From Natrarchaeobaculum sulfurireducens (lineage in GTDB: Archaea; Halobacteriota; Halobacteria; Halobacteriales; Natrialbaceae), in NCBI RefSeq assembly GCF_003430825.1, contig NZ_CP024047.1, forward strand, positions 3,100,001 through 3,164,000: DNA of 64,000 bases. The letters run 5' to 3'. The notes beneath the pieces are model-generated. The model was not told the origin of the DNA, ran no database searches, and saw only the letters and a list, made by a program, of their open reading frames with translations. Position 1 is the first letter of the stretch, and each line of letters begins with the position of its first letter. Below are positions 50,496-56,555 of this stretch, in pieces. Both the position numbers and the translations under genes were made by a program.

Positions 50496-51077
50496 TCAGA
50501 ACCCGAGGACGACCGCCGAGACGCCGATGAAGATGACCATTCCGAAGACGTCGACGACGTTGGTGACGATCGGGATCGTCGTGTCGTCGGGATCGATTCC
50601 CAGTCGATACGAGCCGTACGTCGCCGCGAAACTGAAAACAATGGCGATGACGGCGACGGACATACCGCTGACAAGCGAGATGAACAGGAGCGTTCCGAGG
50701 CCGATTGCACCGCCGAACAACAACGCGCCGATCAGGTACGCCCCCACGCCGAGTGCGGTGAAGATCGTCACCGCGAGCGCGAGGATTGCACCGACGTTCG
50801 CCCACAGCACCCGGTCGGTCGGGTCGAGTTCCGTCGTCCCCAGATGAAAACGCGTCGACAGCCGCGAACTCAAGATCGCACCGAGGTTACCACCCATGTC
50901 GACCATCGTCGGCACCATCACCGCCAGGATGGCGAACTCCTCTAACATCGCTTCTGCGCTCTCGAGGGTGATCCCTGCCCAGAGGACGATGATCGAGAGA
51001 ACGACCAGCAGCGGGAACATGTTGCCGACGATCGACTTCCAGTTCCAGGTACCGAGTGAGTCCTGCGGGACGACCAT
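50496..51077 (-). CDS. MgtE-type divalent cation transporter, half-size (distal)
   Basis: This protein has 193 residues. It has five membrane segments and the MgtE/SLC41 core signature VPTMVDMGGNLGAI, plus the later IVTNVVDVFGMVIF. There is no N-terminal or CBS domain, so it is a pore module only. Half-size MgtE domains must dimerise, most simply with the product of the overlapping upstream gene (stop and start share one base, TGATG). The substrate is most likely Mg2+. Confidence 0.85.
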   Translation of the reverse strand: MVVPQDSLGTWNWKSIVGNMFPLLVVLSIIVLWAGITLESAEAMLEEFAILAVMVPTMVDMGGNLGAILSSRLSTRFHLGTTELDPTDRVLWANVGAILALAVTIFTALGVGAYLIGALLFGGAIGLGTLLFISLVSGMSVAVIAIVFSFAATYGSYRLGIDPDDTTIPIVTNVVDVFGMVIFIGVSAVVLGF

Positions 51078-51646
51078 CAGACGAGCACCTCCACGAAGCC
51101 GATCGCGAACAGCATAAAGAGCATCCCGAAGATATCACCGAGGGTCGTAACGATCGGACCGACGAGGTTGTCGGGGTCGTAGCCATAGCGGTAGCCGGCG
51201 AAGATCAGCGCGAGCAGGCCGACGATCATGACGACCGAGGTCAGCACGCCGGCAACGAGCATGATCCCGACGAGTTCGTAGACGGCGGCGACGTTCCAGC
51301 CGATGAGGAGCAACGCGAGCCAGGTGACGACACCGATAACGATCGAAATTCCGATGCCGTTGACGAACGAGGCGAGCACGGCGTTGACCAGCCGCTCGTT
51401 CCGCTCGAAGCGTGGTTCGATCAGCCCCTGGTGGAGCCCGCTCGAGATCCGACCGCCGAGTGCGCCGTAGACGTTCCCACGGGTCGCGAGGAAAACGGGA
51501 ACCATCACGAGCAAGCCGGGGAACCGCTCGACGCTCTCGAGAATTCCTTCGAGGACGATACCGGCGAAGAGGCCCCCGCCGAGGGCGACAAACAGGATCG
51601 GGAGTGCTTCGCGATAGATCGACCAAAAATCACGCCGAAAGCTCAT
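51077..51646 (-). CDS. MgtE-type divalent cation transporter, half-size (proximal)
   Basis: This protein has 189 residues and is the first gene of the pair. It has five spans, with the family signature as VPVFLATRGNVYGALGGRIS and IVTTLGDIFGMLFM. The signature departs from MDMGGN at the Gly-rich site, reading ATRGN, so the two half-transporters are distinct partners rather than copies. The start codon at 51646 is followed by MSFRRDFWSIYREALP. Confidence 0.85.
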   Translation of the reverse strand: MSFRRDFWSIYREALPILFVALGGGLFAGIVLEGILESVERFPGLLVMVPVFLATRGNVYGALGGRISSGLHQGLIEPRFERNERLVNAVLASFVNGIGISIVIGVVTWLALLLIGWNVAAVYELVGIMLVAGVLTSVVMIVGLLALIFAGYRYGYDPDNLVGPIVTTLGDIFGMLFMLFAIGFVEVLV

Positions 51647-51825
51647 ATCTGGGTCTCACTACGTCGCCTGTTAATACTGCCGGAGAGAACGGTTCGGAAT
51701 GCGGTGGATCGAGTGGATACGAGTGAGTGATCAGGCCGGCGGCCGGGCGTTGATCGACGAGGACGGGCGGCAAACGTATTCGTTTGTGGAGTAGTCACAC
51801 CGCAGGATAAAACCGCTATAACTGT

Positions 51826-51844
51826 CCGACAGGGGCAATGTCGG
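51826..51844. promoter_or_regulatory. Operator-like inverted repeat between divergent mgtE genes
   Basis: CCGACA-ggggcaa-TGTCGG is a perfect 6-base repeat in the 276-base divergent spacer between the half-MgtE operon and the CBS-MgtE gene. A TATA-like attatatg for the plus strand is at 51868-51875. A shared regulator binding here is possible. Confidence 0.4.
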
Positions 51845-51922
51845 TCGGTCCCATGATAGCCGAACACATTATATGTACTAGATGAGAACGTTTTTTAGAG
51901 GCCACTAAAAACGTCCTCGCGC

Positions 51923-52090
51923 ATGCTGGACACTAATCACAGCAGCGGATACGGCACCGATTCTGCGATCAACGACGGTGAACGCGAGCGCGGCCGCTCG
52001 CTCGAGGAACTGATTCTCGACTTGCTCGAAGGTGAGTTCGCGGGCGTCATGCGCTCGCACAGCCGGGGTGAGGTGTATGGGGGCTACTAG
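51923..52090 (+). CDS. 55-residue ORF overlapping the CBS-MgtE start
   Basis: The ATG at 51923 lies 48 bases after a TATA-like element. The ORF has coding-like codon use (LEELILDLLEGEFAGVM) and ends inside the start of the MgtE gene, overlapping it by 14 bases in another frame. It is either a small upstream protein that couples translation of mgtE or the N terminus of MgtE broken by a frameshift. The GEFAGVM words faintly recall the hinge before MgtE CBS domains. Confidence 0.4.
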   Translation: MLDTNHSSGYGTDSAINDGERERGRSLEELILDLLEGEFAGVMRSHSRGEVYGGY

Positions 52091-53123
52091 CGGCCGCGAC
52101 GTCGACTTCCACGCGGACCGCGTCGACGAGATCACCGACGAAGAGTACGTCGCCGTCACTCAGGAGACGTTCGTCGGGCCCGCCATCGAGGAGTTCCGCG
52201 ACTTCGAGCCAGTTTCTGACGAAACGACGGTCTACTACCTGTACGTCACCGACAACGCCGGCCGACTCGTCGGTGTCATGTCACTTCGTGAGCTGCTGAA
52301 CGCGCCCGAAGACGACGTCGTCGAAGCTCACATGGCCACCGACGTGGTGACGATCAACGCCGACGCAGACCCCGAGTGGGCCGCCGACGAGATCGCCGAG
52401 CGAGACTTCCCCGCGATGCCGGTCGTCGACGACGACGGCGTGCTCGTTGGCGTCCTCCGAACCGACAACATGATCGAAGTCGTCGAGGAGGAGGCAACCG
52501 AAGACATCCTCAAAAGCGCCGGCTTCTCCTTCGCCGACGTCGAACGGTCCCGAAGTTCGGCGATCCTCGAGTCCTCGATCCCGAGGATCCTCCGACTGCG
52601 ACTGCCGTGGCTGGTCGTCGCGCTCGCGGGCGGACTCCTCGCTGGCGGTGTCATCGAACAGTTCGAGGATACGCTCGAGGCAGTGGTTGCACTGGCCTTC
52701 TTCGTTCCGGTGATCATGGACATGGGCGGCAACGTCGGGACGCAGGCGTCGACGATCTTCGTTCGCGGACTGGCGCTCGGACAGATTGACGACCGAAACG
52801 CGATGAGACACTTCGCCCGGGAGGGAGTCATCGGCCTGCTCATCGGCCTCATCATCGGTGGCATCGGCGCGCTGGCTGCCTACGGCTGGCGGACGTGGGC
52901 TGGCGATCCGAACGCCGGAACGATCTCCGTCGTGGTGTTCATCGCCCTCGTGTCGGTCTGTGTGGTCGCATCCGTCGTCGGCTACGTCATCCCGTGGCTG
53001 ATGAACAAACTCGGGTTCGACCCCGCAGCAGCCTCGGACCCGCTGATCACGACCGTCAAAGACGTGACGGCGCTGCTGATCTACTTCGGCCTGGCCGCGG
53101 TGTTGCTCGCCGAACTGCTGTAG
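52077..53123 (+). CDS. mgtE: Magnesium transporter MgtE with CBS pair
   Basis: This protein has 348 residues from the ATG at 52077. Two CBS motifs (about 20-85 with YYLYVTDNAGRLVGVMSLRELL, and about 85-140 with FPAMPVVDDDGVLVGVLRTDNM) form the Mg2+-sensing module. The five-span pore carries FVPVIMDMGGNVGTQASTIFVRGLALGQI. The usual N-terminal superhelical domain of bacterial MgtE is missing or lies in the upstream ORF. It imports Mg2+ and closes when internal Mg2+ is high. It diverges from the half-MgtE operon. Confidence 0.92.
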   Translation: MGATSGRDVDFHADRVDEITDEEYVAVTQETFVGPAIEEFRDFEPVSDETTVYYLYVTDNAGRLVGVMSLRELLNAPEDDVVEAHMATDVVTINADADPEWAADEIAERDFPAMPVVDDDGVLVGVLRTDNMIEVVEEEATEDILKSAGFSFADVERSRSSAILESSIPRILRLRLPWLVVALAGGLLAGGVIEQFEDTLEAVVALAFFVPVIMDMGGNVGTQASTIFVRGLALGQIDDRNAMRHFAREGVIGLLIGLIIGGIGALAAYGWRTWAGDPNAGTISVVVFIALVSVCVVASVVGYVIPWLMNKLGFDPAAASDPLITTVKDVTALLIYFGLAAVLLAELL

Positions 53124-53368: not shown

Positions 53369-53845
53369 TCAAAACGGACCCACAGCGACGAGTAGCCAGG
53401 CGAGCCCGATTCCCAACAGCGAGAGCACGAGGTTCGCCGCGGCGACCACCACCGCAAGGTCTCGATCACCGCGCTCCCAGAGCTGGACCGTCTCGACCGA
53501 AAACGACGAGAACGTGGTGAACGCCCCACAGGCACCGATCCCGACCAACTGAATCGTCGACTCCGTCGCACCGGCGAAGACGAACAATCCGAAAACGACG
53601 CTTCCAACCACGTTGACGACGAGCGTCGGGATCGGATACCGATCCGACGAAAGCTGGAGGTAGACCAGGTGCCGACAGACGGCACCGATCGCCGCGCCGG
53701 TACCGACGAGGTGTGCCGGTTCGGGATCGAACGAGGCGACGGCCGCGGTAGCGGCGACGACGGCGACAGCGACGGCGTCAACCGAGAGCATACCGTGGAT
53801 CGACCCGAGTAGACCGGCAGCGAGGGCGAGTGTCGTGGCGATCAC
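53369..53845 (-). CDS. crcB: Fluoride channel FluC/CrcB, subunit 2
   Basis: This protein has 158 residues. It is a four-span Fluc protein with the conserved GAVCRH, LVVNVVGSVVFG (pore Asn) and GACGAFTTFSSFSVE (central Phe/Thr/Ser track). The N terminus has an extra hydrophobic helix of about 30 residues (ATTLALAAGLLGS). Fluc channels export F- as antiparallel dimers. Its ATG overlaps the stop of subunit 1 by four bases, which suggests a heterodimer. Confidence 0.92.
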   Translation of the reverse strand: MIATTLALAAGLLGSIHGMLSVDAVAVAVVAATAAVASFDPEPAHLVGTGAAIGAVCRHLVYLQLSSDRYPIPTLVVNVVGSVVFGLFVFAGATESTIQLVGIGACGAFTTFSSFSVETVQLWERGDRDLAVVVAAANLVLSLLGIGLAWLLVAVGPF

Positions 53846-54231
53846 GCTCGCTCACCCCCGATCCGTCTGGCGACTCCACGGCCGACGAGTACGCCCGTAA
53901 ATCCGAGCACGTAGTTGACGCCGACGATAGCCAGCGCGAGCCAGACGGTCTCCGCCTCGGCGATCCCCATCGCGAACCCGCTGTAGGTCGTCAGCGACGA
54001 GAGAAACCCCGTCGTAAAGACGAGTCGCGACTGACGATCGACGATTCCGGTGTACTGGGCCTCGTAGACGAAGACGCCGAGGAGCGTGCTGCCGACAATG
54101 TTGACGAGCGCGATCGCCAGATCGTCGGGGACGGTTCCGAGTGCAAAGAACCGGAGGTTCGCACCGGCAAATCCACCGATGGCGATCAGTGCAAGCGTCT
54201 CGAGTCGGACGAGCGGATGTCGGTCTGCCAT
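53842..54231 (-). CDS. crcB: Fluoride channel FluC/CrcB, subunit 1
   Basis: This protein has 129 residues, the usual size. It has GGFAGANLRFF, LVNIVGSTLLGVFVYE (pore Asn) and TGFLSSLTTYSGFA, in which Tyr replaces one Phe of the standard TTFSTF track. It is the first gene of the fluc operon, and its start codon lies 14 bases after the predicted fluoride riboswitch. The operon should remove fluoride that enters as HF. Confidence 0.92.
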   Translation of the reverse strand: MADRHPLVRLETLALIAIGGFAGANLRFFALGTVPDDLAIALVNIVGSTLLGVFVYEAQYTGIVDRQSRLVFTTGFLSSLTTYSGFAMGIAEAETVWLALAIVGVNYVLGFTGVLVGRGVARRIGGERA

Positions 54232-54244
54232 GGCTGTCGAGTCA

Positions 54245-54320
54245 GGACAGGGACCGTCAGCCGCCCACGATATCGCAGGGATCGGCAGTTGGATCAGGCG
54301 GGCCCCATCGCCCGGTTACG
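54245..54320 (-). ncRNA. Fluoride riboswitch (crcB motif)
   Basis: Read on the minus strand, the leader of the crcB operon has GGCG-AUGGGGCC-CGCC (54312-54297), matching the crcB aptamer stem with the conserved AUGG start of its loop. A second stem CUGCC/GGCGG follows (54287-54283 with 54265-54261). Then comes CUGACGGUCCCUG, whose GGUCCC can pair with GGGGCC of the loop to form the diagnostic pseudoknot. A last hairpin CUGUC/GACAG ends two bases before the AUG and may be the expression platform. Known crcB RNAs sit in the same place before fluoride exporters. Confidence 0.75.
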
Positions 54321-54488
54321 GCAGGGGTTCTCACAGAACGGACATGAGCGTTGCGAAAGTCGACATGTCCACTCGAGACGGGAGCCGAACGCTCTCGGAG
54401 CATCGGCCCACAGCCAGCTGCGTTTCGCAGGAACAACTGTCGTAGCGAGTCCGAATCGCTCAAGTACGCGACCGGTCTATTCCGTAGC

Positions 54489-56555
54489 GTGTCGAAGCAG
54501 GTCCAGGACGTAGAGACGCTCTTCTGTCACGAGACCGGCGACGATTACCTCGTCGTCGTCGAACGCGACGGAACGCGGCTCTTCCGTGCAAAACTCGGAC
54601 TCTCCGAGACGTCGGCCGGTCCCCGTCCGGCGAAGTTCCGGCTCAAACAGGGCTCGAGCGAAGAGCCTCGCCAGCCCGACGAGTTCGTCGAACTCGCCCG
54701 GCGTACGAAGCGCATCCGAATCTCCGAACAGACCTCTCGCGAGGCCCGCGACGAGCTGATGGAGATGCTCGCGGGCTACCAGCTCGAGGAGAAAGCAAAG
54801 GCCGTCCGGACCTGTCGGTACTGTGCCTCTGCGGGCCGTTACTCACCGATTACGACCGAGACTGCCGTCAAAGACGACCAGGACTGGATCTGCCGGGACT
54901 GTGCCCAACAGGAACTCGAGCGTCAACTATCTTACTCCGGCGGCGGCCGGGTCACCGGCGACGCCAAAGACCGACTCGAGGACCTGATGCTCGAGGTGCA
55001 GGATCTACAGCGGATCGTCAACCTACTGAAAGGCCGCCTCGATCCCGATCTCACGAAGTTCGATACCATCTCGGCGACGACCGACGAGGTCGACCCGGTG
55101 CGGGTGGACTCGTTGAGCCTGCATCCGGGACTCCAGGGGTTGCTCGAGGATCGGTTCGAGACCCTGTTGCCGGTCCAGAGTCTCGCAGCGGAGAACGGCC
55201 TCTTCGAGGGCGACGACCAGCTGGTGGTGTCGGCGACGGCGACCGGGAAGACCCTCGTCGGCGAGATGGCTGGGATCGACCGCGTGCTGAACGGCAAGGG
55301 GAAGATGCTCTTTCTCGTCCCGCTCGTGGCGCTGGCCAACCAGAAGTACGAGGACTTCCAGGATGAATACGGCCACCTCGTCGACGTTTCGATCCGCGTC
55401 GGCGCGAGCCGAATCAACGACGACGGCAACCGGTTCGACCCGAACGCCGACGTCATCGTCGGCACCTACGAGGGAATCGACCACGCGCTGCGGACGGGCA
55501 AGGAGATGGGTGATATCGGCACCGTCGTCATCGACGAGGTCCATACCCTCAAAGAGGACGACCGGGGCCACCGCCTCGATGGACTGATTTCACGGCTCAA
55601 ATACACGTGCGAGCGACGTGCGGAGAGGCGGGACGGCTACGATGGTGCCCAGTGGGTCTACCTCTCGGCGACCGTCGGCAACCCCGAACAGCTCTCGGGC
55701 GCCCTCGAGGCGACGCTCATCGAGTTCGAGGAACGACCGGTGCCGATCGAACGCCACGTCACGTTTGCGGACGGCCAGGAGAAGGTCCGCATCGAGAACA
55801 AACTCGTCAAACGCGAATTCGACACCGAGTCCTCGAAGGGATATCGCGGGCAGACGATCATCTTCACCAACTCCCGACGGCGATGTCACGAGATCAGTCG
55901 CAAACTCGAGTACGCCTCCGCGCCGTACCACGCCGGGCTCGATTACAAGCGCCGGAAGACGGTCGAACGGCAGTTCGGCGAGCAGGACCTCGCGGCCGTC
56001 GTTACGACCGCCGCACTGGCTGCGGGGGTCGACTTCCCGGCCTCGCAGGTGATTTTCGATACGCTGGCGATGGGCATCGAATGGCTCTCGGTTCAGGAGT
56101 TCCACCAGATGCTCGGTCGCGCGGGCCGACCGGACTACCACGACGAGGGGACCGTGTACGTCCTCGTCGAGCCCGACTGCGCCTACCACAACTCGATGGA
56201 GATGAGCGAAGACGAGGTCGCGTTCAAACTCCTCAAAGGCGAGATGGAGGCGGTGATGACCCACTACGACGAGTCCGCGGCGATCGAAGAGACCCTCGCG
56301 AACGTCACCGTCGGCGGCAAGTCCGCGAAGGCGCTCAACGACCGGATGCTCGGCGAGGTCCCGACGAAACACGCCGTCGGCAAACTCCTGCAGTACGACT
56401 TCATCGACGGCTTCGAGCCGACGCCGCTCGGCCGGGTCGTCACCGAACACTTCCTCGACCCGGGCGAGGCGTTCGCCCTGCTGGACGGCATCCGAAAGGA
56501 CGCCCATCCCTACGACCTCATCGCCGACATCGAACTACGCGATTCACAGCTCTGA
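54489..56555 (+). CDS. Ski2-like DEVH-box helicase with zinc ribbon
   Basis: This protein has 688 residues from the GTG at 54489 (MSKQVQDVETLF). A zinc ribbon (C109xxC112 and C135xxC138) precedes a coiled region and the SF2 core. Walker A is ATATGKT (about 249-255), Walker B is DEVH (about 349-352), and LSATVGNPEQ, IIFTNSRRRC and QMLGRAGRPDYHDEG are the later motifs. It is close to Hel308/Ski2 but has the haloarchaeal zinc-bearing N terminus. The role is probably DNA or RNA unwinding in repair or decay. Confidence 0.85.
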   Translation: MSKQVQDVETLFCHETGDDYLVVVERDGTRLFRAKLGLSETSAGPRPAKFRLKQGSSEEPRQPDEFVELARRTKRIRISEQTSREARDELMEMLAGYQLEEKAKAVRTCRYCASAGRYSPITTETAVKDDQDWICRDCAQQELERQLSYSGGGRVTGDAKDRLEDLMLEVQDLQRIVNLLKGRLDPDLTKFDTISATTDEVDPVRVDSLSLHPGLQGLLEDRFETLLPVQSLAAENGLFEGDDQLVVSATATGKTLVGEMAGIDRVLNGKGKMLFLVPLVALANQKYEDFQDEYGHLVDVSIRVGASRINDDGNRFDPNADVIVGTYEGIDHALRTGKEMGDIGTVVIDEVHTLKEDDRGHRLDGLISRLKYTCERRAERRDGYDGAQWVYLSATVGNPEQLSGALEATLIEFEERPVPIERHVTFADGQEKVRIENKLVKREFDTESSKGYRGQTIIFTNSRRRCHEISRKLEYASAPYHAGLDYKRRKTVERQFGEQDLAAVVTTAALAAGVDFPASQVIFDTLAMGIEWLSVQEFHQMLGRAGRPDYHDEGTVYVLVEPDCAYHNSMEMSEDEVAFKLLKGEMEAVMTHYDESAAIEETLANVTVGGKSAKALNDRMLGEVPTKHAVGKLLQYDFIDGFEPTPLGRVVTEHFLDPGEAFALLDGIRKDAHPYDLIADIELRDSQL

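Follow-up and report, generated by a model that had tools for sequence, protein, structure and literature searches.

The crcB motif was discovered in 2010 in both bacteria and archaea (PMC2864571), and as of 2021 the sole riboswitch shown experimentally in an archaeon was that of the hyperthermophile Thermococcus kodakarensis (PMC8241225). Our literature search, which covered openly accessible papers but not predictions, found no paper on fluoride riboswitches in haloarchaea. In Haloferax volcanii, 5'-UTRs do not require a Shine-Dalgarno (SD) sequence (PMC3986360), and a synthetic riboswitch has been shown to function there by masking the start region, with better performance at higher salt (PMC8241225), so that, by analogy, a translational ON switch suits haloarchaea. 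We now propose that the 5' leader of the crcB1-crcB2 (Fluc) pair of Natrarchaeobaculum sulfurireducens quite probably contains a fluoride riboswitch that acts on translation. The locus lies within a stretch of 64,000 nucleotides of this genome, which we refer to as the window, and its features are collected in Table 1.

Table 1. Features of the crcB leader and gene pair, in window positions
Feature	Position	Strand	Basis or detail
Promoter-like element TTTCGCAACGCTCATG (BRE/TATA position)	54343..54358	minus	alignment by distance from P1
Fluoride riboswitch aptamer, RF01734	54241..54321	minus	full-model covariance match, sole credible one in the genome
P1 hairpin GGCG-AUGGGGCC-CGCC	54297..54312	minus	inspection and covariation among relatives; GGCG 54312-54309 with CGCC 54300-54297, loop contains AUGGGGCC
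5' pseudoknot strand GGGGCC	54301..54306	minus	within the P1 loop
P2 helix	54260..54286	minus	GCCG 54286-54283 with CGGC 54263-54260; covariation
U38-G39-A40-C41, 3' pseudoknot strand GGUCCC (54255-54250) and linchpin U48 (54249)	54249..54259	minus	conservation
Proposed OFF hairpin, GGCUG 54262-54258 / CAGCC 54236-54232	54232..54262	minus	local fold, enrichment
crcB1, 129 aa, first subunit of a Fluc-type fluoride exporter	53842..54231	minus	PF02537, E 4.7e-14; predicted start AUG at 54231-54229
crcB2, second CRCB subunit	53369..53845	minus	PF02537, E 2.8e-22

The minus-strand leader is CCGGGCGAUGGGGCCCGCCUGAUCCAACUGCCGAUCCCUGCGAUAUCGUGGGCGGCUGACGGUCCCUGUCCUGACUCGACAGCC-AUG. An earlier reading, made from the sequence alone, had described in it a GGCG/CGCC stem, a second helix and a pairing of GGUCCC with GGGGCC, all of which are present on this strand. 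The two pseudoknot strands can form five Watson-Crick pairs and one G-U pair, and P2, whose loop is very variable in length among relatives, sits between P1 and the 3' pseudoknot strand. The nucleotide numbering follows the crystal structure of the Thermotoga petrophila RNA, in which the A6-U38 and A40-U48 contacts form the fluoride site. In a covariance scan with cmscan, positions 1-64 of the 64 of model RF01734 align to the leader with 29.5 bits and an E value of 2.2e-6, calculated for a 401-nt stretch against all 4227 Rfam families. The match is thus significant, as the sequence-only reading had led one to expect, though it falls under the curated gathering score of 34 bits, and RF01734 was not reported when the locus was scanned at the gathering threshold. 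The second-best RF01734 score in the whole genome is 13.4 bits (E 0.9), and a 29-base pattern of the subtype described below has a single match in the window, at the crcB leader, with 0 expected from shuffles.

Both genes downstream encode CRCB proteins, in agreement with their earlier assignment as a haloarchaeal crcB pair. The crcB1 AUG had been placed 14 bases beyond the RNA; the distance is about 13 bases from position 54245, the end given for the RNA in that reading, and 18 from the end of the pseudoknot strand. The GTG start of crcB2 overlaps the stop codon of crcB1 (GTGA), which suggests that the two genes are translationally coupled. Just downstream of the pair, at 50496-53123 of the window, lie a CBS-MgtE gene and two adjoining half-size MgtE genes, and mgtE relatives are found no more than about 1.5 kb from crcB in many other Natrialbaceae; the placement of magnesium transport beside fluoride export may be functionally meaningful. 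A divergent open reading frame for a DEAD-box helicase (54351-56555, plus strand) begins upstream of the crcB leader and was not found beside crcB in the related loci examined.

How far the RNA extends among relatives is apparent from the haloarchaeal class as a whole. With a limit of E ≤ 0.05, RF01734 has matches in 103 of the 391 genomes that represent the class, 34 of which exceed the gathering cut-off, and the crcB1 protein is present in 56 of 61 relatives. From the DNA directly 5' of crcB1 we collected 79 distinct aptamer-bearing haloarchaeal leaders, all with the same aptamer-then-crcB arrangement, and by sequence these can be sorted into two types. Type I (GGCGAUGGAGUCCGCC ... GGCUGAUGACUCCU; 31 leaders) is spread over most haloarchaeal families, while type II (GGCGAUGGGGCCCGCC ... 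GGCUGACGGUCCCUG; 48 leaders) is confined to the Natrialbaceae and includes the N. sulfurireducens RNA. This Natrialbaceae subtype is further characterised by GGCGAUGGGGCCCGCC ... GGCUGACGGUCCC, a G-U pair held constant in the pseudoknot, and C41. Among 125 Natrialbaceae genomes, 78 have an exact match to a type II pattern, at most one in each (reversed control, 0); among the 391 genomes of the class, 60 do, every one of them from the Natrialbaceae (reversed-pattern control, 0 of 391). All collected type II leaders stand before crcB1. Of 42 distinct rows, 41 keep the G-U pair, and the distance from P1 to GGCUG ranges from 16 to 174 nt. By these sequence characters the Natrialbaceae RNAs are a distinct aptamer subtype, with a GGGGCC/GGUCCC pseudoknot, C41 and a variable P2 arm. 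Only four of the 60 type II genomes (G047, G212, G350 and G020) reach the Rfam gathering score, probably because of the G-U pseudoknot pair, the variable distance between P1 and GGCUG and the long P2 arm, and most Natrialbaceae members are therefore missed by Rfam's threshold. Four further RF01734 matches (L020, L090, L095 and L096) were set aside, since the retrieved DNA contained no crcB1 and the aptamer motif expression had no match in it; the scores of L090, L095 and L096 are weak and were taken as chance, whereas L020 scores well.

The aptamer helices are backed by covariation across haloarchaeal crcB leaders. In 34 distinct trimmed leaders, 98.7% of the aptamer cells are paired and six pairs are altered on both sides, values that none of 500 shuffles matches by any measure, and sliding the pairing partner abolishes the signal. 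Paired cells amount to 99.3% in P1, 97.1% in P2 and 99.5% in the pseudoknot, with double changes seen in P1 and P2: a compensatory GGUG/CACC occurs in P1 of L168 (Natronococcus sp. A-GB7) and of G390, and C-G becomes U-A in P2 in other families. Individual pseudoknot pairs are 98-100% paired across leaders, position 10-45 being represented by A-U, G-C, G-U and C-G and position 12-43 by U-A, C-G and U-G. A6-U38 is retained in 68 of 69 distinct leaders and A40-U48 in 67. P1, P2 and the pseudoknot thus covary as a fluoride riboswitch assignment predicts, which supports the identity given to the RNA in the sequence-only reading. A chance resemblance within a G+C-rich leader would be compatible with the sub-threshold score, but we regard it as a negligible explanation given the E value and the empty reversed-pattern control, and the strong covariation together with class-wide conservation at the same place refutes it. 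Nor do we think it at all likely that the Natrialbaceae RNA preserves the fold while having drifted to another ligand or lost its function. The fixed G-U pair with C41, the score under the cut-off and the decayed copies in some relatives could be read in that way, but the core bases are nearly invariant within the subtype, both fluoride-site contacts are kept and each collected leader precedes crcB1 with the pattern occurring no more than once per genome. In our view these comparisons confirm the leader 5' of the crcB pair as a genuine fluoride riboswitch, one that belongs to a family-wide type with slight alterations and whose binding of fluoride we infer.

Several related loci depart from the common arrangement. 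In L161, L169, L177, L185, L204 and L228 decaying aptamers, of which only the 3' half remains or the core is broken, lie 5' of an intact crcB, and this suggests repeated loss of fluoride control. The converse is seen in a Natrialbaceae genome (L014, position 1510), where an intact type I aptamer of 53.9 bits is followed by an apparent truncated crcB remnant, and which looks like a riboswitch that has outlived its gene. Two loci, L013 and L011 (the latter on its minus strand), have tandem fluoride aptamers, at about positions 1095 and 1510; the first precedes a membrane protein of about 70 residues (MGQQDT...) with a strong SD sequence, GGUGGAGGU, and the second precedes crcB1. Two non-haloarchaeal genomes of the same phylum (G704:C3:201740-214613 and G644:C16:70098-82052) contain seven RF01734 matches within 13 kb, possible fluoride-response islands.

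The position of a putative promoter would place the aptamer at the beginning of the transcript. The promoter-like element is kept in Natrialbaceae leaders about 30 nt 5' of P1, and type I and type II alike show a peak of A+T-rich or TATA-like sequence about 30 nt upstream of P1, with the form TTTCGCAACGCTCATT or similar in type II. This spacing suggests that the transcript starts close to the 5' end of the aptamer, and it predicts a start near 54313-54322.

At the other end of the leader, the last five bases 5' of the AUG are CAGCC, complementary to the aptamer segment GGCUG, which comprises the 3' strand of P2 together with U38 and G39. The local hairpin (54262-54232) has a calculated energy of -13.6 kcal/mol and a pairing probability of 1.0 in its arm. 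Information content before the AUG peaks at positions -1 to -5 (1.05-1.5 bits vs mostly <0.6 further upstream). A complementary arm of 5 bp or more that runs exactly to base -1 is found in 36 of 48 leaders of type II and 9 of 31 of type I vs 3 of 99 other ATG genes taken from twenty 20-kb stretches of this genome, although the Fisher values (1.7e-20 and 1.2e-4) overstate the case because leaders of the same family are related and so not independent of each other. Additional type II leaders from named genomes have the AUG-adjacent arm in 13 of 17 cases, and it occurs in 3 of 38 crcB leaders counted as aptamer-less, two of which (L169 and L177) are decayed riboswitches. Even in L054, where a 96-nt spacer with a long perfect hairpin separates the pseudoknot strand from the start, CAGCC still adjoins the AUG. 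The local hairpin forms in 88% of type II leaders vs 41% of those with shuffled spacers, at mean energies of -12.5 and -7.1 kcal/mol, respectively. In pseudoknot-free folds of whole leaders the OFF helix is dominant in 46% of type II vs 18% with shuffled spacers, a comparison that discriminates weakly because G+C-rich leaders misfold in silico. Since the OFF hairpin takes up P2 together with U38, G39 and some of the pseudoknot strand, it would be incompatible with the ligand-bound aptamer. The leaders therefore contain a predicted helix that would exclude the aptamer and occlude the initiation region, the covariation of which is not significant (88-250 of 500 shuffles score as high), as the aptamer constrains its 5' arm. 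The sole clean double change is G39-A with C-U, giving GGCUA/UAGCC in L048 and L254, and the L048 relatives L252, L253 and L255 have GGCUG/UAGCC, that is, U-G intermediates.

Two other pairings near the start codon were considered and rejected. In the minimum-energy fold of 54330-54221, CUGCCGU (54324-54318) is paired with AUGGCAG of the start region. We do not take this pairing as the switch because CUGCC is unconserved in other leaders and most of it falls 5' of where transcription is predicted to begin. The sequence-only reading had proposed the final hairpin by the AUG as the switch, with control probably at translation or through mRNA folding, and the idea of a hairpin there that acts on translation is supported. 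The CUGUC/GACAG hairpin right before the AUG, probably the one meant in that reading, was rejected, as it occurs only in this genome and the conserved pre-AUG partner is GGCUG.

Based on these features, we put forward a hypothetical mechanism in which transcription would begin near the aptamer 5' end and, when fluoride is lacking, GGCUG would pair with CAGCC beside the AUG, disrupting P2 and the pseudoknot. This hairpin would block initiation, a step for which a Shine-Dalgarno sequence would not be required. With fluoride and Mg2+ the aptamer would dock, holding GGCUG in P2 and the core, so that CAGCC-AUG would be free and crcB1 translated, with crcB2 translated next via start-stop coupling. 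As fluoride would free the start codon, the RNA would be an ON switch for fluoride export. We favor, with somewhat less assurance than the translational riboswitch explanation as a whole, the more specific reading that this is a natural subtype with a Shine-Dalgarno-independent translational platform, in which GGCUG would fold onto the five pre-AUG bases, so that structure close to the start codon would by itself gate initiation on haloarchaeal leaders, and would do so at multimolar salt. An SD-like motif before the start is present in none of the 48 type II leaders.

The same hairpin could instead terminate or pause RNA polymerase, which would make this a true but transcriptional fluoride riboswitch. 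The stability of the local hairpin and the use of terminators by the switches of Bacillus cereus and Thermotoga petrophila (PMC11077080) are in keeping with this alternative, but we consider it improbable. Between the pseudoknot strand and position +40, T runs reach a length of no more than 3 in the 48 type II leaders and 4 in the remainder, no intrinsic terminator with a U-tract overlaps the aptamer in the 48 type II leaders, and the hairpin ends right at the AUG; this agrees with the earlier judgement that a bacterial terminator is probably not involved. Slightly less improbable, though still unlikely in our view, is a true fluoride riboswitch in which CAGCC reflects an initiation or sequence preference, with switching by mRNA decay or by docking alone affecting the ribosome. 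In its favor are the lack of significant covariation in the OFF helix and the approximately one quarter of type II leaders that are without the AUG-adjacent arm, as well as three type I leaders (L028, L030 and L035) in which a pre-AUG GGAG stands opposite a CUCC pseudoknot strand instead. It is hard to reconcile with the finding that CAGCC stands directly before the start codon in 29 of the 48 type II leaders but at 0 of the 99 other ATG starts of this genome, and that it is rare at aptamer-less crcB starts save those with decayed aptamers. Under the translational mechanism that we prefer, the GGAG leaders indicate that some type I leaders employ candidate competing pairs of another kind.

If the SD-independent reading is correct, this would be a natural riboswitch in a halophile whose output does not use a ribosome-binding sequence. 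Fluoride switches of this kind are widespread in haloarchaea, lie right at the start codon and, in the Natrialbaceae, are without an SD motif. They would provide a natural test system for translation initiation on leadered mRNAs, and halophile genetics would gain from them an inexpensive inducible switch that does not depend on a promoter.

What is new here is the family-wide aptamer subtype and the proposed SD-less platform abutting the start codon, as the riboswitch class is already known. With the RF01734 crcB motif the Natrialbaceae RNAs share P1, P2, the pseudoknot, the A6-U38 and A40-U48 contacts and the place before crcB, and they differ from it in the G-U pair of the pseudoknot, C41, the long variable P2 arm and a score that is usually below the gathering value. 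The T. kodakarensis switch is likewise archaeal and, according to Speed et al. (2018) as cited in PMC8241225, presumed to be translational, but the 86-nt RNA in question is found 5' of TK0513 and not directly before crcB (PMC4247193), whereas the haloarchaeal form adjoins the crcB1 start codon and is without an SD motif. The B. cereus and T. petrophila switches belong to the same aptamer class and also use a competing hairpin that captures the 3' pseudoknot strand, but theirs is a terminator with a U-tract, while that of the Natrialbaceae has no U-tract and reaches the AUG (PMC11077080). The closest parallel in output is the synthetic theophylline riboswitch E of Haloferax volcanii, also a translational ON switch with the start region masked in the ligand-free state, which is engineered and contains an SD sequence, whereas the Natrialbaceae RNA is natural and SD-less (PMC8241225).
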